DNA from: Desulfobotulus alkaliphilus
GTDB lineage: Bacteria; Desulfobacterota; Desulfobacteria; Desulfobacterales; ASO4-4
NCBI RefSeq assembly: GCF_007830435.1
Contig: NZ_VLLC01000005.1
Span: 26,191-90,190, forward strand
DNA: 64,000 bases
Direction: 5' to 3'
Shown here: positions 2,333-56,680 of the stretch, one piece after another
Numbering within the stretch: the first letter of the stretch is position 1
Layout: each line of letters begins with the position of its first letter
Notes under the pieces: model-generated
Told to the model about the DNA's origin: nothing
Seen by the model: the letters and a program-made list of their open reading frames with translations, nothing else
Database searches by the model: none
Position numbers and translations under genes: made by a program

Positions 2333-3001
2333 TTATTTCTGGAAGGCATTGATTTTATTTTCCAGAGCAGCAATCCAGTTCTGAAGACCTTCTCCGGTTT
2401 TGCAGGATACGGGAATAATGGCAGCACGGGGATTGACCCTGCGGACATGGTCTGTAAAACGTTCCAGACTGAAATCACACAAAGGCTGCATATCCGTTTT
2501 ATTGACAAGGATAATATCACACACGGAAAACATCAGGGGGTACTTAAGGGGTTTGTCGTCTCCTTCCGGAAGACTGGCAATCATCATGTTCAGATGGGCG
2601 CCTGTGTCAAATTCTGCGGGACAGACAAGGTTGCCAACATTCTCAATAAAAATAATATTCAGCTTCTCCAGATCCATTTCATCCAGACCGGATACCACCA
2701 TGGAAGCATCCAGATGGCAGAAGCCCCCTGTGCGGAGCTGGATCACAGGGAGACCGGCAGCAGCCATTTTTTCTCCGTCCACACTGGATTCAATGTCTGC
2801 CTCAAGAACACCCATGGCTGATGTTTCAGAAAGCAGGACCGCCGTTTTAAGGAGAAGACTGGTTTTTCCTGCTCCCGGTGACGCCATCAGGTTGATAAGA
2901 AAAAGGCCCTGCTTTTTTAAACGGGTGCGAAGGTCATCGGCCATGGCCCCGTTGTCCGCCAGAATATCCTCTTTTACATCAATGATACGTACCTGATCCA
3001 T
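2333..3001 (-). CDS. hypB: Hydrogenase/urease-type nickel insertion GTPase HypB
   Basis: This 222-residue SIMIBI-class GTPase delivers nickel during maturation of [NiFe] hydrogenases. The Walker A motif SPGAGKTS is at residues 41-48. The G-domain metal-site residues are Cys95-His96 (GGFCHLDA) and Cys127 (NLVCPAEFD); NKTD supplies guanine specificity. It lacks the histidine-rich N-terminal stretch of some HypB proteins. It is the first gene of the set hypB, cbiM, Fe-S protein, with 58 bases before cbiM. No hydrogenase structural gene or other hyp gene lies in the window. Confidence 0.9.
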   Translation of the reverse strand: MDQVRIIDVKEDILADNGAMADDLRTRLKKQGLFLINLMASPGAGKTSLLLKTAVLLSETSAMGVLEADIESSVDGEKMAAAGLPVIQLRTGGFCHLDASMVVSGLDEMDLEKLNIIFIENVGNLVCPAEFDTGAHLNMMIASLPEGDDKPLKYPLMFSVCDIILVNKTDMQPLCDFSLERFTDHVRRVNPRAAIIPVSCKTGEGLQNWIAALENKINAFQK

Positions 3002-3123
3002 AGGCCTCCTTTTGATTTTTAGGAAATGACTGTCTGTTTTTCATGGTAAAACATCAAAAAGATGACATAATAACAGAGCAATGTCGAGAAAAGAAGCATA
3101 CAAACTATTCCGGAGGATAATTT

Positions 3124-4086
3124 TTGAGACTGCGCCGAAGCCTTCAAAACACCATGCTGGTCATGCTTGTTTCCGTAACAGCGCTGGTGATTTCCTTTTT
3201 CCTTTACATCCGCTGGTTCATGGAGGTGAGGGCAGGGCTGATGGATCTGGCAGGCAACCTGAATCTTGATCTCGACCGGGTGATGGCTCCTGAAACCTTC
3301 AGTGTCATCCTGACACTTTCCGTACTGGTGGGACTTATTCTTGTGGGCCTGAGTGTCATTTATCTCTATTACAGACGGGCCATGTCTCTGTATCGCATGC
3401 AGCGCCGCTTTATCCGCAGCTTTACCCATGAACTGAAAACACCCGTGGCTTCCATCCGGCTGTATCTGGATACCTTTTTAAGGCATGAGCTGCCAAGGAG
3501 TGAGGAGCTTAAGTATCTTGCTTTCATGAAAAAAGACGCCGAACGTCTTTCTGAACAGATTGAAAGAATCTTAAACCTTGCCCGCATCGAAGGGGGGATG
3601 ACGCCGCTTTCTCTGGAATGTACGGATCTTGGAGAGAAAATTCTGTCCATCTACCATGCCAACCCTCAACTGTCCGGACTTTCCCTTCATATACATCCAA
3701 CGGATAAAAAAATTGTTTATCCGCTGGATCCGGGACTTTTTTCCATGGTTCTGGGAAATCTCATGGAAAATGCCATGAAATACAATGATTCAGGGGCACC
3801 TTCCATGGAGATCCATATGGAAAAAAGAAAAAACAGGCTCTTTTTAAGTTTTCGTGATAACGGTCATGGTCTTGATAAAAAGAACGAAAAGAAAATTTTC
3901 AGGAGATTTTTCAGGGTAAATCCCAAGGGTGCCGTTCCGGGTACAGGGCTTGGCCTGCACCTTGTCCACCATGTGATTCGTATGCACAAAGGACGCATAT
4001 GGGCTGAAAGCGAAGGACCGGGAAAGGGCAGTACCTTTATTGTCAGCCTGCCCCTACGGACGGGAGAGTGTTGTGATGTCAAATAA
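3124..4086 (+). CDS. Membrane-bound sensor histidine kinase
   Basis: This 320-residue kinase starts at TTG 3124, supported by GGAGG at 3112-3116. Two membrane helices (about 11-33 and 58-83) enclose only about 25 periplasmic residues, so sensing is probably within the membrane or envelope. The HisKA box FTHELKTP has the phospho-acceptor His102. The ATPase domain shows the N box (LMENAMKYND), the DNGHG box and GTGLGLH. No HAMP domain was recognised. The gene overlaps the response regulator start by 11 bases, so the two are cognate. It is divergent from hypB; the signal is unknown. Confidence 0.88.
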   Translation: MRLRRSLQNTMLVMLVSVTALVISFFLYIRWFMEVRAGLMDLAGNLNLDLDRVMAPETFSVILTLSVLVGLILVGLSVIYLYYRRAMSLYRMQRRFIRSFTHELKTPVASIRLYLDTFLRHELPRSEELKYLAFMKKDAERLSEQIERILNLARIEGGMTPLSLECTDLGEKILSIYHANPQLSGLSLHIHPTDKKIVYPLDPGLFSMVLGNLMENAMKYNDSGAPSMEIHMEKRKNRLFLSFRDNGHGLDKKNEKKIFRRFFRVNPKGAVPGTGLGLHLVHHVIRMHKGRIWAESEGPGKGSTFIVSLPLRTGECCDVK

Positions 4087-4819
4087 AATTTTGCTTATAG
4101 AAGATGATCCCCACCTGCTTGAGGGTATCCGTCTGAACCTTTATCTTGGCGGCCATGAAGTTTTCTGTGCGGTTTCAGGAAAAGAAGGCCTTGCGATCTG
4201 GGAAGAAGCTTCTGTGGATTTTGTCATCCTTGACCGTATGCTTCCGGATATGGACGGGCTCAAGGTGCTTGAAAAAATAAGAAAAACAGACGAAAGTCTG
4301 CCAATTCTGATTCTTTCAGCCAAGGGGGAGGTGGAGGACCGTAAGGCAGGTCTCAGGCGGGGCTGTGATGATTACATGGCAAAACCCTTTGACATGCAGG
4401 AGCTGGAACTGCGCATGGAAAGGCTTCTTCTCAGAGGAAAAAGTATCAAGCGAACAGGGTCCCGGGATTTTTTTTTCGGGGACCACCGTATCGACTGGGA
4501 GCGCAGGGTGGCTGTGGTTGACGGAGAGGATGTCCCCCTCACTGATCAGGAATTCCGCATTTTAAAATATTTTGCAGAAAATCCCGGAAAACCCGTCAGC
4601 AGGGAAGCCATCCTGACCCGTGCCCTTGGATACGCAGCCCCCGTTGCCACCCGCACCGTGGATAATTTTCTTGTGCGTTTCCGCCGTTATTTTGAAAAAA
4701 ATCCCAGAAAGCCCAAATTTTTTAAAAGCATACGCTCCGTAGGCTATCTTTTTGATCCTTTTGGGCAGGAAAAGGATAGCAGACAGAAAAAGGATGAAGA
4801 AAACAGCGATACCCGATAA
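4076..4819 (+). CDS. OmpR/PhoB-family response regulator
   Basis: This 247-residue regulator starts at ATG 4076, inside the kinase 3' end, with GGGAGAG at 4062-4068 as ribosome binding site; an in-frame ATG at 4040 lacks one. The receiver has the acidic pair EDD at 9-11, phospho-acceptor Asp53 (ILDRMLP), Ser81 and Lys103 (AKPF). The C-terminal winged helix ends with the usual RTVDNFLVRFRR recognition region and SIRSVGYLF hairpin. It probably binds direct-repeat promoters when phosphorylated by the kinase encoded just upstream. Targets are not evident. Confidence 0.9.
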   Translation: MSNKILLIEDDPHLLEGIRLNLYLGGHEVFCAVSGKEGLAIWEEASVDFVILDRMLPDMDGLKVLEKIRKTDESLPILILSAKGEVEDRKAGLRRGCDDYMAKPFDMQELELRMERLLLRGKSIKRTGSRDFFFGDHRIDWERRVAVVDGEDVPLTDQEFRILKYFAENPGKPVSREAILTRALGYAAPVATRTVDNFLVRFRRYFEKNPRKPKFFKSIRSVGYLFDPFGQEKDSRQKKDEENSDTR

Positions 4820-4822
4820 GGC

Positions 4823-6253
4823 CTATCCATGAAGTCCCTGTCCCATGCCTTTACATGCCATCTCATAAAATATTTCACTGAAGGTGGGATGGGCATGGAT
4901 GGTGCCTGCCATATCCCTTAAGGTGAGGTTTTTGCTGATGGCCAGGGTGGCCTCGGCAAGAAGCTCTGTGGCATGGGCTCCCACCAGATGGCACCCCAGT
5001 ATCTTCTCACTTTTTTCTTCCGTTACAAAAACAGCCTCACCGCCAAGCTGGCCTGTGGCATGGGCTTTACCGAGGCTTCGCATCAGTACGGATGTGGTTT
5101 TGACACGAAAACCCCTTTCCCTGGCCCTTTCGGCACTCAATCCCACAAAGGCCACTTCAGGCTCCGTAAAAACAGCCGAGGGGATGGCAGTATAGCCCAT
5201 GGTTTTCCTCTGGCCCATGGCATTTGCCACGGCCACCTCTGCTTCTGCCGAAGCCACATGGGCCAGCATGATCCTTTCAGGCCCTGTGACATCTCCAATG
5301 GCAAAAACGCCGGGACAGGCGGTTTCCATGGCATCGTTGACGGGCAGATAACCACGGGCATCCGGATGAAGATGCAGGCTGTCAAGGCCAAGATTCAGGG
5401 TGTTGGGTTTACGGCCCACACAGAGAACAAGGCAGGCAGCCCCGATGGATTCCATCTTTTCATGGTTTTCCGTTGCAGGAGAATTTTTTTTAAGATTTAC
5501 ACGAATTCCATCGGCGTTTTTTTCCAGATCAAGGATGCTGCTGGATGTATGGATACCGATTTTCTGTTTTTTAAATTCCCTTGCCAGCAGTCTGGATGCG
5601 GAGGCATCCAGATCCGGCAGGGGAAGAATCCGGTCTGCCATCTCAACAAGATCCACCTTTGCACCAAGGCCTGAAAGGATGGATGCAAATTCACAGCCCA
5701 CAACACCGGCTCCAATAATCAGGGCTGATGGTGGCAGGGATGCCATGCGCAGAAAATCGTTGGAAGAAAGGCATTGTATTCCATCCGTGGAAATTTTCGG
5801 AAGACCTGCAGGCACGGTACCTGTGGCAATGATCAGGCGGTCCCAGCTCAAAGATGTTTTTTTTCCATCCTGATGTCTGACGGAAAGAAGGCCTTTTCCT
5901 TCAATGCGGGCATCTCCTGAAATAAGCTGCACCCTGTTGTGTCTGAGCAGGGCATCAATCCCTTTCTGCTGGGTGGCAATGACCGTCTGCTGTTTTTTCT
6001 GTAGCGCCTTCATATCCAGAACAGGGGGCGTTTCCAGATGAATACCGGACAGGGCAGCATGGCGTATCTGACGCATGGCGGTGGCTGCACTGACCATAAC
6101 CTTGGATGGAATGCAGCCCCAGTTCAGGCAGGTGCCGCCTAAGGCTTCTTTTTCCACAAGGGTAACTTCTGCACCCGACTGAGCTGCACGGATGGCAGCC
6201 ACATAACCACCGGGGCCTGCGCCAATGACAGAGATTTTAAGGGACATTTGCAC
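4823..6253 (-). CDS. lpdA: Dihydrolipoyl dehydrogenase
   Basis: This 476-residue flavoprotein oxidises dihydrolipoyl groups of 2-oxoacid dehydrogenase or glycine cleavage complexes with NAD+. It has the FAD site GAGPGGY near the N-terminus, the redox disulfide GGTCLNWGCIPSK, the NAD site IIGAGVVGCEFAS and the C-terminal catalytic HAHPTFSE. Its length is normal. The gene stands alone: no E1, E2 or gcv genes are adjacent, and it ends 3 bases from the convergent response regulator. A start a few codons in (MSLKISVIG) is possible. Confidence 0.92.
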   Translation of the reverse strand: MQMSLKISVIGAGPGGYVAAIRAAQSGAEVTLVEKEALGGTCLNWGCIPSKVMVSAATAMRQIRHAALSGIHLETPPVLDMKALQKKQQTVIATQQKGIDALLRHNRVQLISGDARIEGKGLLSVRHQDGKKTSLSWDRLIIATGTVPAGLPKISTDGIQCLSSNDFLRMASLPPSALIIGAGVVGCEFASILSGLGAKVDLVEMADRILPLPDLDASASRLLAREFKKQKIGIHTSSSILDLEKNADGIRVNLKKNSPATENHEKMESIGAACLVLCVGRKPNTLNLGLDSLHLHPDARGYLPVNDAMETACPGVFAIGDVTGPERIMLAHVASAEAEVAVANAMGQRKTMGYTAIPSAVFTEPEVAFVGLSAERARERGFRVKTTSVLMRSLGKAHATGQLGGEAVFVTEEKSEKILGCHLVGAHATELLAEATLAISKNLTLRDMAGTIHAHPTFSEIFYEMACKGMGQGLHG

Positions 6254-20745: not shown

Positions 20746-22101
20746 TCATGCATACAGACCAGCATCGATTTCCATTGCCTTCTGAACCTTATCACAGACG
20801 GCTCTGGCTTCTTCCTCAGATTCTGCCTCCACCATGATGCGGCAAAGAGGTTCCGTGCCGGAATACCGCACAAGAATACGGCCCATATTTCCAAGATGTT
20901 TTTCAGCGGCTTCTATTTCCCTTTGCACGCCGGGGAGTTTTTCTAAAGAAATTTTTTTCTTTACGGGGATATTCACAAGAACCTGAGGGTATGTTCGCAT
21001 ACAGGCAGCCAGTTCATGCAGGGGCTTCTTTTTACAAAGCCTTGCCAGTAGAACCGCAGCAAAGAGACCATCCCCCGTACAGTGGGGACCAAGAAAAATC
21101 AGATGACCTGAATCCTCTCCCCCGATCAGAGCTCCCTTCTCATGCATGCGCTGTAATACCTGTCTGTCACCTACACCGGTCACTTCATGGACAATACCTG
21201 CCTGTTCAAGGCTTTCCTTCAGGCCCAGGTTGCTCATGACCGTACTGACCAGAACTGGCGGGTTCAATTGCCCCTTTTCCATGGCTGACCTTGCAAAAAT
21301 GGCCAGAAGAGTATCGCCGCTGATTTTTTTACCATAAGCATCCACGGCAATCAGACGGTCACCATCTCCGTCAAAGGCAAAGCCTGCATGGGCTTTTTTT
21401 TCAGTCACATGGCGGCAAAGCAGCTCCGTATGCTGGGAACCAACACCCTCATTGATATTCATGCCATCGGGTTCTGCTGCAAGGACATGCACCTCTGCGC
21501 CCAGAGCACGAAAAACCTCTGGAGCTGCCTGATACATGGCACCATGGGCCGTATCCAGCACCAGCTTCATGCCATTAAGGGAGTGGCCCTCCCCTGCTTT
21601 TGTAAGAATGAAGCTGATGTAATCCTGCAAAATATCAGATGCGGGGAGCATGCGACCCATGATGTTTATGTTTTTTTCTGTCCATGTTTTCATGAACAGT
21701 GCGGAGATTTTTTCTTCATCATCATCGCTGAGTTTCATCCCCCTTTGGGTAAAAAATTTTACACCGTTATCGTAATAGGGGTTGTGGGATGCAGAGATCA
21801 CAGCACCGGCACTGGCTTTTCCGCTGCGAACTGCCAGAGCCACCGCTGGTGTCGGGAGAATTCCCCCATCCATGACATCCACCCCCGAATCCATGAGACC
21901 TGCCGCCAGGGCAGCGCTAAGCATATCGCCGGAATTCCTTGTATCCTTTCCAATCAGCACAGAGGGTCTGTCTTTTGTATCTGTGCAACAGCTGCGAAGC
22001 CAGACACCAAAGGCTTTTCCAATACTGGCAAGACCCATGGCATCCATGGGCAATACACCAGCACGGCCCCGGATGCCATCAGTTCCAAAAATATTCTTCA
22101 T
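20746..22101 (-). CDS. glmM: Phosphoglucosamine mutase
   Basis: This 451-residue enzyme converts glucosamine-6-phosphate to glucosamine-1-phosphate for UDP-GlcNAc synthesis. It starts MKNIFGTDGIRG and has the phosphoserine loop SASHNPYYDNGVKFF, the metal loop DGDGDR and the phosphate-binding RYSGTEPL. The start at 22101 is set by family N-terminus and AAAGGAT just upstream; the open frame continues to 22215 but runs into a repeat element whose end is only 27 bases from the start codon. manC follows. Confidence 0.92.
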   Translation of the reverse strand: MKNIFGTDGIRGRAGVLPMDAMGLASIGKAFGVWLRSCCTDTKDRPSVLIGKDTRNSGDMLSAALAAGLMDSGVDVMDGGILPTPAVALAVRSGKASAGAVISASHNPYYDNGVKFFTQRGMKLSDDDEEKISALFMKTWTEKNINIMGRMLPASDILQDYISFILTKAGEGHSLNGMKLVLDTAHGAMYQAAPEVFRALGAEVHVLAAEPDGMNINEGVGSQHTELLCRHVTEKKAHAGFAFDGDGDRLIAVDAYGKKISGDTLLAIFARSAMEKGQLNPPVLVSTVMSNLGLKESLEQAGIVHEVTGVGDRQVLQRMHEKGALIGGEDSGHLIFLGPHCTGDGLFAAVLLARLCKKKPLHELAACMRTYPQVLVNIPVKKKISLEKLPGVQREIEAAEKHLGNMGRILVRYSGTEPLCRIMVEAESEEEARAVCDKVQKAMEIDAGLYA

Positions 22102-22128: not shown

Positions 22129-22595
22129 GTAATTATTCAGCACCTTTTTCCAAAGACCATACCTGCAAGACAGATGCACAGGCCCCAGGCTATTTGCCCG
22201 TGACGCAACCGGCACTCAAGCTGAAAAACTCAAGCCCTTTACGGGAGCAAAAATGCTTCAAGGATCTTGAGTGCCGGATTCGGGAGCTTCTTGCCCTGTG
22301 CGGAAGCGAAAAAAACCCCCCGCCACAGGCAGGATAAGCTTTTTATTACCATGGCAGGCCTTGGTACGCTGCCTTTGTGGCGGCTCAGACAGTTTGCCGC
22401 TTCTTATTGGCACTCCGGCACTCAACCCTGAAAAAGCTATATTATTTGCATCATAGGCTTTAGGTTTATGGCTTGAGTGCCGGAATCCGAAACGATTGCA
22501 ATGTCACTTGCCAATAGCCACGGAGCCTTGCAGCAGTAAGACGCTGCTGCAACTACAGCATTGGAAGTTCGGAATAAAATATGCTGAATAATTAC
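22129..22595. mobile_element. MITE-like non-coding element, copy A
   Basis: This 467-bp element has perfect 14-bp terminal inverted repeats: GTAATTATTCAGCA at 22129-22142 and its complement at 22582-22595. Inside, CCGGCACTCAAG (22209-22220) pairs with 22266-22277, and CCGGCACTCAA (22415-22425) pairs with 22473-22483. A second copy lies at 56136-56582, with a 47-base identical block (22262-22308 against 56270-56316). It has no open frame worth calling. It resembles a miniature inverted-repeat transposable element or a structured repeat family. Its left end lies in the glmM leader. No clear target duplication was seen. Confidence 0.75.
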
Positions 22596-22716
22596 AAGAA
22601 ATAAAGCATTCTGATTAACACTGTCTTTCAGCCATACAAACCTTCATCATGGAAATTAAATGACAAGATTTTAAGCATGTTCACGGGCACCCGTAAAGGG
22701 TGCCCCTACATAAAAC

Positions 22717-22833
22717 AGGGCCGTAAAAACCAAGCGTTAAGGGCAGGCCTTGCGCCTGCCCGTGTTAAAGCCCGCACCATAGGCCTGGGGCAACAACCTG
22801 ACCAGCAAGTTGTGGCTGAGTCAAGGTAGTAAT
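22717..22833. repeat. Dispersed REP-like repeat, copy 2
   Basis: It matches 62-170 with scattered differences. The palindrome GGGCAGGCCTTGCGCCTGCCC is at 22741-22761. A further small inverted repeat, GGGCACCC...GGGTGCCC, lies just before it at about 22685-22705. It fills the gap between the copy A element and the downstream beta-helix gene; the gap 22102-22848 has no gene. Confidence 0.6.
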
Positions 22834-22848
22834 CAAATAAAGCATTCA

Positions 22849-24048
22849 TTAGAATGTCAATGCTGCCCATGCCTCCCCTGCCCTTTTTTCCGTAATGGAA
22901 TACAGCCATCTGCGGCCCGCATCCCTTTGTTCCGTATTCAGCGATGCAAGGGTTGAGAGATAGTCCTTTTCAAAAATAAAATTATCAAAAAAACGCTTTT
23001 TAAAATGAAGGACTGTCTCATTTTTGCTCTGTTTTTCATCTTCCGAAAGAAGGAGACAGACAGCGTCGGCTTTTTCCATCCACAGGCTGTGCAGGCTGTT
23101 TCTTTCAAAGCATGAAACCCTGGCTGATGCTGCAAGTTTTTCCTTAAGCTGCCGCAGACGTTTGATTCTTTCGGAAATGGCGGATTTCACCTGCTGCAAT
23201 AAGGCATGGTGCAGTTTTTCTGGGAAACGGGGGGAAATCAGTTTGCCCCTGACATGTCTATACCACTGTTCAAGGGCATGGAGATTGGCGATGTAGGTAA
23301 AATTATGATCCAGAATACGGCGTAGCCCCGGATAGTGACCCGCAGACCTTTCAACGTTGCCTCCCCTCAGGCTGGAACCGAAAATGAGCCGGTTTTCCCT
23401 GAGCTCGTCTTTGCGCTGCAGGGTGCCTGCAGCCACTACGGTCCCAAAGGCAAGGCGGCATGGCCCCACAAGCCCTCCCTGCCCTCCCAGAAAAATTGGG
23501 GCTTTATCCAGCATGACACCGGACGGTACATCACCGAGCAGGGAAGCCGTTGCCTTGTCCTGATCCGGCGTAAAGTTAAAATGAATATAACTGCTGCCCA
23601 CCTCTGAATGATCCTGAGGCCCTGTGCCGCCGGTCATGAGAATATCACAGAAGTTAATCAGGCTGCCGAGGGTTACCCATGGAAAAAGGATGGTCTGCTT
23701 GAGTCCCACGCTGTGGGCGATGGAAGCGGATTCTTCAAGAATGCTGCCGCCACGCACATGGCTGCCATTCCCTGCCTTGGCCCCTTCAAGAAAAACGGCA
23801 TCTTTAAAAAATCCGCCTTTCAGGTGTACATGGCGGCCTGTACAGACATTTTCCATAACCACTGGTCCCTCTTCGCCCACTTGACTGCCTGAAAGCAGAA
23901 GGGTTCCTGAACCGGAAATCCGGCATCCCGGATAAAGGGTAACATCCTTTTCTATGTTATCAGGGCTCACATCTTTGGCAATGAAGACCTGGGCCGGGTC
24001 TGGCATTATAACCCCTTTTTCCAAAAGTCTTGCATGAATACTTTTCAT
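22849..24048 (-). CDS. GlmU-like left-handed beta-helix protein
   Basis: From ATG 24048 (GGAG 9 bases upstream) this is a 399-residue protein; an in-frame ATG at 24129 lacks a ribosome binding site. Residues about 15-215 form hexapeptide-type beta-helix turns (VTLYPGCRISGSGTLLLSGS and similar). The C-terminal half is helical with a charged coiled region. The family is usually annotated as UDP-GlcNAc pyrophosphorylase-related, but the nucleotidyltransferase signature is absent, so acyl- or sugar-transfer or a scaffold role is as likely. It is near glmM and divergent from pgi. Confidence 0.7.
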   Translation of the reverse strand: MKSIHARLLEKGVIMPDPAQVFIAKDVSPDNIEKDVTLYPGCRISGSGTLLLSGSQVGEEGPVVMENVCTGRHVHLKGGFFKDAVFLEGAKAGNGSHVRGGSILEESASIAHSVGLKQTILFPWVTLGSLINFCDILMTGGTGPQDHSEVGSSYIHFNFTPDQDKATASLLGDVPSGVMLDKAPIFLGGQGGLVGPCRLAFGTVVAAGTLQRKDELRENRLIFGSSLRGGNVERSAGHYPGLRRILDHNFTYIANLHALEQWYRHVRGKLISPRFPEKLHHALLQQVKSAISERIKRLRQLKEKLAASARVSCFERNSLHSLWMEKADAVCLLLSEDEKQSKNETVLHFKKRFFDNFIFEKDYLSTLASLNTEQRDAGRRWLYSITEKRAGEAWAALTF

Positions 24049-24189
24049 TCTGATATGCTCCGGTCTCTTGCAACTTCGAACTCGCAGTACTGTTATATCA
24101 GCTTCTGACCATTTCCATTTGTCATCCATATAAAGGATGAATCTGGCTCAGCAAACCTTTAGCATAAAATCAGGCAGGGCGTACAGACC

Positions 24190-55977: not shown

Positions 55978-56135
55978 TGAACATTATAATCGAAACGATT
56001 TATTATAAACCTTGATTCCTGATTGATTTGTCTGTCTATGGCACACCTTTCTGACGGATCACTTGAACGGCTCTTTTGTCCAGGAACCCGGAACGCCAAT
56101 GCTTTTTTTTTTGGTGTTCCATTTTTCCAGAAAAC

Positions 56136-56582
56136 GTAACTTTTCAGCACCGTTTTCCAAGTACCATACCTGCAAGACAGATGCATAGGCCCCAGGCTAT
56201 TTGCCCGTGACGCAATCCGGCACTCAAGCTAAAAAACGCAAGCCCCTTTACGGGAGTAGAAATGCCTATGGATCTTGAGTGCCGGATTCGGGAGCTTCTT
56301 GCCCTGTGCGGAAGCGGCAAAAACTCCCCGCCACAGGCAGGATAAGCTTTTTGATTACCATGGCAGGCCTTAGTACGCTGCCTTTGTGGCGGGTCAGACA
56401 GTTTGCCGCTTCTTATTAGCACTCCGGCACTCAAGCCTGTAAAAGTCTATTGCTTTTCTCGCAGGCTTTGGATTTATGGCTTGAGTGCCGTCACTTGCAA
56501 ATAGCCACGGAGCCTTGCAATAGTACAAAGCTGCTGCAATTACAGTATGGGCAGTTCAGAATAAACTGTGCTGAATAATTAC
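56136..56582. mobile_element. MITE-like non-coding element, copy B
   Basis: This 447-bp relative of copy A has TIRs GTAACTTTTCAGCA (left, two mismatches) and TGCTGAATAATTAC (right, 56569-56582). It shares the internal hairpin arms (CCGGCACTCAAG at 56217-56228 with 56274-56285) and long identical blocks, with a roughly 16-base deletion near the right side. It sits between dctM and the old tRNA-Arg terminator. Open frames inside it are not conserved as coding and are left out. Confidence 0.75.
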
Positions 56583-56590
56583 CAGAAAAC

Positions 56591-56632: not shown

Positions 56633-56680
56633 TGGCGCGCCCGGCACGATTCGAACGTGCGACCTACGGATTCGTAGTCT
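56633..56680 (-). other. Attachment site: 3' fragment of a tRNA-Arg(ACG) gene
   Basis: Read on the minus strand this gives an anticodon loop CTACGAA, the 3' anticodon strand, a variable loop, a T-arm with GCACG-TTCGAAT-CGTGC, a 7-base acceptor strand CGGGCGC, discriminator G and CCA. The 5' half is missing: upstream bases do not pair. This is the usual remnant left when an element integrates in a tRNA 3' end, with the intact gene at the far end. The integrase starts 196 bases away. Confidence 0.85.

Follow-up and report, generated by a model that had tools for sequence, protein, structure and literature searches.

A gene-free element upstream of glmM

The window analysed here is a 64,000-nucleotide stretch of the Desulfobotulus alkaliphilus genome. 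It holds two copies of a gene-free element, one in the leader of glmM (the focal copy) and one 34 kb away. The name glmM is taken from the earlier note on this DNA, and the protein domains are consistent with it. The features are listed below; the inner cassette is delimited from the alignment of copies.

20746..22101, minus strand: glmM, four PGM_PMM domains, downstream of the focal copy
22129..22595, no strand assigned: focal MITE copy, 467 bp, gene-free
22129..22142, plus strand: left terminal inverted repeat, GTAATTATTCAGCA
22200..22507, no strand assigned: inner palindromic cassette, GTGACG...GTCAC; both optional hairpins present
22209..22277, no strand assigned: optional hairpin 1, arms CCGGCACTCAAG...CTTGAGTGCCGG
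22415..22483, no strand assigned: optional hairpin 2, left arm carrying a single change (CCGGCACTCAAC)
22582..22595, minus strand: right terminal inverted repeat, reverse complement of the left
22849..24129, minus strand: upstream gene, product of 426 aa without a Pfam family
56128..56135, plus strand: target duplication CAGAAAAC, left of the second copy
56136..56582, no strand assigned: second copy of the MITE in the window, 447 bp, both hairpins
56583..56590, plus strand: target duplication CAGAAAAC, right of the second copy

The element that the earlier note had described at 22129–22595, bounded by terminal inverted repeats and copied at 56136, is real, and its ends and coordinates were confirmed. 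The 14-bp terminal inverted repeats said to be common to both copies are perfect in the focal copy, while the left end of the second copy (GTAACTTTTCAGCA) matches the right one at 12/14 positions. The two copies are 85% identical. A perfect 8-bp repeat (CAGAAAAC) lies on both flanks of the second copy; the focal copy, flanked by AAAATAAT and AAGAAATA, lacks a target duplication. No third copy was found in the window by profile search. The strong internal stems also held up: the focal stretch has a minimum free energy of -184.3 kcal/mol, compared with -134.5 in 100 shuffles (sd 6.2; z -8.1), and its opposite strand folds with z -8.75.

As had been noted, one end of the element lies only 27 bases from the glmM start codon (ATG at 22101, minus strand). 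In the two congeners examined (G001 and G002) glmM directly follows the upstream gene, uninterrupted; the alignments of the two genes are 37 bp apart in G002, and in G001 both are adjacent, with blastn covering the upstream gene only in part. The same interval in D. alkaliphilus (G000) spans ≈750 bp and contains the MITE and other GC-rich palindromes. Since the genes are adjacent in both relatives, the insertion split the pair. GlmM is essential in many bacteria, and transcription must therefore pass through the element or restart. An effect of the focal copy on the glmM leader or on glmM expression is possible. A scan of the glmM leader gave one promoter-like and one terminator-like site, no more than in shuffled sequences.

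Two palindromes lie beside the MITE in the glmM leader, the GC-rich GGGCAGGCCTTGCGCCTGCCC at 22738–22787, which also occurs at 80–129 of the window, and GGGCACCCGTAAAGGGTGCCC at 22685–22705. Near the second copy, a phage integrase (56876–58108) and a C4 antisense RNA (Rfam RF01695; 60064–60146) suggest a prophage-like region starting close to the element. By eye, 56635–56680 resembles part of a tRNA, and ARAGORN calls none there.

Copy number and distribution

In the 4.0-Mb draft genome (95 contigs, 98.12% complete), a BLAST query with the focal copy gave at least 46 pieces (40 of 286 candidates scored). The terminal sequence GTAATTATTCAGCA, with up to one mismatch, occurs 223 times (112 + 111) and the reversed pattern not once, which excludes a chance origin. 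With a profile built from the genome's own copies of 180–356 bp, 69 loci were found on contigs C2, C3 and C6, and 124 on eight contigs (1,544,435 bp), fragments as well as copies being counted. These 124 loci add up to 38,575 bp (2.5%), and the reversed control gave none. Extrapolation from 124 loci in 1.54 Mb gives about 320 copies and fragments for the whole genome. The earlier note had called for a search for further copies, and a family of only two members with no matching transposase would have spoken against its reading; the family is far larger. Copies range from 177 to 531 bp in length.

Among 58 genomes searched, including its own, the element was matched in four: D. alkaliphilus, the two congeners, and one other with only a 32-base match (E 1e-3). 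The end pattern GTAACTGYTCAGCA was counted 102 times in G000, 32 times in G002 and six times in G001. It is present 1–4 times in 22 of the 386 other genomes of the order (25 of 389 in total, three being from the genus), and five genomes contain its reversed control, each a single time. At two of 30 loci examined, from other families, such ends are borne by other short elements (152 bp with 7/8 flanks and 115 bp with 8/8 flanks). Ten proteins taken near ends of this type matched no transposase family, and two of them matched no family at all. A scan of genome contigs outside the own genome for a 20-base core gave, among the matches listed, one (L153), in which 20–26 bases are set in unrelated DNA; the core was not found in viral contigs, plasmids or phages.

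Target duplications, empty sites and genomic placement

We paired ends on contigs C2, C3 and C6 by their sequence alone, which gave 29 end pairs, including one in which two elements were wrongly joined. The flanks match at 8/8 positions in 15 pairs and at ≥7/8 in 18; a good duplication is absent in 11, the wrong pairing included. A wider list, admitting weak ends with good duplications, had 48 rows, of which seven spanning two elements were dropped to leave 41 copies.

Comparison of 69 element loci in G002 (some counted twice) with G000 gave ten rows sorted as empty in the latter. They represent six distinct places and a 62-bp fragment (two rows) that is seemingly present in G000. At the site corresponding to the G002 copy L264 (C2:110694–110701 in G000), the D. 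alkaliphilus flanks overlap by exactly 8 bases. This overlap is the single, uncopied target of an empty site. At L138 the overlap is 7 bases.

All 41 copies lie between genes predicted by an ad hoc gene finder, overlaps of up to 30 bases being allowed; three run 4–25 bases into a gene end and one holds a weak predicted ORF. The gene finder misplaced the glmM start, and its distances are approximate. The gaps that hold copies are tandem in 23 cases, convergent in 14 and divergent in four, against 393, 72 and 77 for all gaps.

The copies lack a transposase gene, carry terminal inverted repeats and are interspersed. Target duplication is seen family-wide and for the copy at 56136, and not for the focal copy. 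The family is a high-copy, genus-specific MITE family of which the focal element is one copy. The MITE reading of the earlier note is borne out by the copy number, the 8-bp duplications and the sites empty in one sister genome, as well as by transposase genes of the IS66 family outside this genome whose ends are the same.

Modular interior and changes at shared sites

Oriented copies consist of an outer frame (two main types), a palindromic inner cassette and two sites for a hairpin of ∼69 bp. Size classes of ∼185, 272–318, 345, 404–413 and 443–476 bp are largely set by the blocks present; lengths are unreliable for four of the 41 copies (248, 250, 305 and 195 bp), which hold runs of N. Hairpins as independently mobile units found no support: all 42 exact-arm hairpins in the 1.54 Mb sit inside copies, as did 30 of 30 in a first sample with one mismatch allowed.

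Fifteen distinct sites (19 rows) are occupied in both G000 and G002. Lengths at such sites include 179/472, 272/∼462, 348/195 and 411/331 bp (G002/G000). As the blocks differ at sites occupied in both genomes, they change in place. Deletion explains several of these differences, and the inner cassette has been deleted at some shared sites; gain of blocks may come about by gene conversion from other copies.

Orientation was checked at 12 of the 15 sites (all except L072, L150 and L214) and is opposite at three. These are L063, L137 and L076, which correspond to C11:117432, C5:81594 and C2:94471 in G000 and are 95, 90 and 91% identical to them; pairs in the same orientation are 93.5–97.8% identical. 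We considered inversion in place for the flipped pairs, but as two of the three are only 90–91% identical, separate insertions are equally likely.

An extra 58-bp end beginning with GTAACTTCTGAG or GTAACGTCTGAG was seen in three copies, G000:C2:254591–254908, G000:C6:4943–5346 and L028:1436–1966. The first two have matching flanks (7/8 and 8/8, respectively) outside this end, and the G002 relative at the L028 site lacks it. In one and the same intergenic site, only a few bases separate a frame B copy in G001 (L130) from a frame A copy in G000 (C6:133461–133873), suggestive of a target hot spot.

Transposases with matching ends

The MITE end type GTAAYTRTTCAGCACA was compared with the ends of elements that carry a transposase gene, including more distant IS66 genes from 20 regions in 19 genomes. 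An intact 1759-bp element from another genome of the order (L219, genome G191) has a 471-aa ORF of the IS66 family (PF03050, E 9e-47; NCBIfam transpos_IS66). Its ends are GTAATTATTCAGCA, identical to the MITE end at 14/14 positions, and GTAACTATTCAGCC, and it is flanked by the duplication TATAATTT; one end and the 8-bp duplication length are thus those of the MITE. The similar element L236 (1723 bp) has the ends GTAACTATTCAGCG and GTAACTATTCAGCA and the duplication TATAAATA. At L220 one end was found (GTAATTATTCAGCACC), like that of the focal copy, and the remaining regions of the 20 show related ends or none that could be recognised. When the copies were compared with the 20 regions by blastn, likeness to intact IS elements was found only at the ends.

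Eight named plasmid regions were also inspected, six of which show ends with 8/8 duplications. The ends are closely similar in four: ISGka4 from Geobacillus kaustophilus (ends GTAACTATTCAGCCCG and GTATCTATTCAGCCCA, duplication AACTCGTC), pDrdI of Deinococcus wulumuqiensis (ends GTAACTGCTCAGCA, duplication GCCGCTTG), Paraburkholderia caribensis and Candidatus Chlorohelix. They are looser in the Planococcus and Acaryochloris regions, and no such ends were found in those of Oceanisphaera and Deinococcus KNUC1210. The available excerpt on ISDge4 gives the ends GTGACTACTCAGCA and GTAACTGCTCAGCA with an 8-bp repeat, and its authors place the element in the ISBst12 group (PMC12898284). By its ends and single ORF, ISGka4 is probably of the ISBst12 type as well. 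Two IS66 elements with 8-bp repeats are described for Paracoccus in the text accessible to us (PMC3281130), and classical IS66 ends are given as GTAAGCG in an excerpt of another study (PMC12888890).

A transposase matched to the terminal repeats, for which the earlier note had proposed to search the genome, was found in the same order and on named plasmids, with the same kind of ends and 8-bp duplications, but not in the draft genome of D. alkaliphilus itself. No ISBst12-type partner was found in the 95 contigs (98.12% complete). With L219 as query, an element on contig C66 was the only match in G000; none was found in G001, and G002 yielded a 61-aa vestige. An extinct or unassembled ISBst12-type member of IS66 is the likely mover, since single-gene IS66 elements elsewhere carry the same ends and 8-bp duplications.

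Alternative explanations

The C66 element (2927–4832) is the sole IS66 element of G000 and might itself move the copies. It belongs to the same Pfam family as the L219 type, has ends that start GTAACT (GTAACTTCTCAATAAGTG), and two MITE copies carry the extra 58-bp end starting with GTAACTTCTGAG that resembles the C66 ends, with matching flanks outside it. The element has no duplication of its own, and 8-bp duplications are seen among its relatives: nine of 30 loci with the element or relatives combine GTAACWTYTCAA-type ends and 8/8 duplications, and the others have ends without duplications or no recognisable ends. However, the C66 end agrees with the MITE end at only 10/16 bases, against 14/14 for L219, and C66-type relatives in the order retain GTAACWTCTCAA-type ends, and we consider movement by this element quite unlikely. 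Spread by a RAYT (Y1) transposase, as for extragenic palindromes of the REP/BIME type, would fit elements that are intergenic, palindromic and of high copy number. Yet we know of no REPs with terminal inverted repeats and 8-bp target duplications; the MITE has both, and the duplications contradict this reading, which is hardly credible.

The earlier note had offered a structured RNA family as its alternative, in which the interior would be transcribed and retained for its RNA function. The strong folding on both strands agrees with this, and so does the comparison of paralogs (37 of 43 end pairs of 335–360 bp, reduced to 35 when two mis-paired rows were dropped): own frame A copies are 95.6% identical in the inner cassette, 87.2% in the outer frame and 82.8% at the ends, and between frames A and B identity is 95.8% in the cassette and 54.3% in the outer frame. 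In the consensus fold, 4 of 51 pairs are changed on both sides (0.5, sd 0.6, in shuffles), but 3 double-changed pairs remain when the fold is slid by one column. Cells with G-T changes outnumber those with A-C changes (56 to 11), though three pairs supply 48 of the 56, and counted by pairs the two are equally frequent (9 and 10). Four same-orientation copies shared with G002 show 29/751 changes in the inner part, 22/636 in the outer part and 10/320 in the flanks; with a fifth, flipped and poorly aligned pair the counts are 49/906 and 50/762 for inner and outer parts (p 0.35). These vertically shared copies thus show no extra constraint, which disfavours a conserved RNA; the loss of the cassette from some shared sites likewise speaks against it, and the element has no Rfam match at E ≤ 1. 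We regard the RNA alternative as highly improbable. The comparison, small as it is (n = 4), argues that the cassette probably spread recently across frames rather than being under stronger selection. Purifying selection on the cassette, hinted at by the paralogs, was not borne out by the four shared copies; seen in paralogs the cassette had the look of a conserved RNA and lost it once the vertically shared copies were brought in, a trap for analyses of this kind.

A coding peptide was considered as well. In many copies the inner cassette has an uninterrupted frame of 58 codons on its minus strand. However, the variability at codon positions 1, 2 and 3 of this frame, by our assignment of the phases, is 0.017, 0.040 and 0.037, which is not codon-like, and some copies are frameshifted.

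Origin and known relatives

The copies, their ends and duplications, the empty sites, the matching ends on IS66 elements and the block differences were seen directly. As a whole they are very probably explained by an IS66-family MITE of the ISBst12 type, moved in trans and with a modular interior. The ends GTAACTGTTCAGCACA and GTAATTATTCAGCACA would be those recognised by the DDE transposase of a one-gene ISBst12-type element, and such a transposase, absent from the assembled genome, would have moved the copies in trans into intergenic gaps, each insertion duplicating 8 bp of the target. The interior is a long palindrome built of blocks. Internal deletion removes blocks, and they are also acquired or lost at occupied sites, with recombination or gene conversion among copies as the most likely route. 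At the glmM site, insertion together with the neighbouring palindromes turned a gap of ∼37 bp into ∼750 bp and parted glmM from the upstream gene. A bolder scenario, on the unlikely side in our view, has an IS66-type frame outliving its transposase, with cassettes still being exchanged, deleted and perhaps flipped in place among the hundreds of resident copies, one palindromic block homogenised across unrelated frames, and the glmM copy maybe acting as a read-through barrier or attenuator of this cell-wall gene.

ISBst12-type single-gene elements such as ISDge4, as far as described in the excerpt cited above, resemble the MITE in their GTAACTRYTCAGC ends and 8-bp duplication; unlike the MITE they carry a transposase gene, and the likeness is confined to the ends. 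The Chunjie MITE of Geobacter uraniireducens, compared here by its description in the review text available, is likewise mostly intergenic, with size variants and many partial copies, but is 235 bp long with 38 copies with conserved ends and 57 partial ones, against 467 bp and ∼320 loci here (PMC10969869). MITECca01 of Cardinium also derives from an IS and is abundant, its 169 copies making up 3.5% of the chromosome; in the sections available it is traced to an IS982-family element of which intact copies persist (PMC9769881). MITEPye1 of Paracoccus yeei is similarly linked through its ends to an IS family and folds into long stem-loops, but that family is IS1182 and the accessible text gives 1–3 copies per chromosome (PMC11578231).

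No report of an IS66- or ISBst12-derived MITE was found in the portions of the literature that our searches reached. The family is new, ordinary in kind and unusual in its block exchange. A large IS66-type MITE set with both empty and shared sites in a sister species is useful for studying how MITEs change after insertion. The optional internal blocks recall the modular BOX elements of Streptococcus pneumoniae, a likeness by description only.
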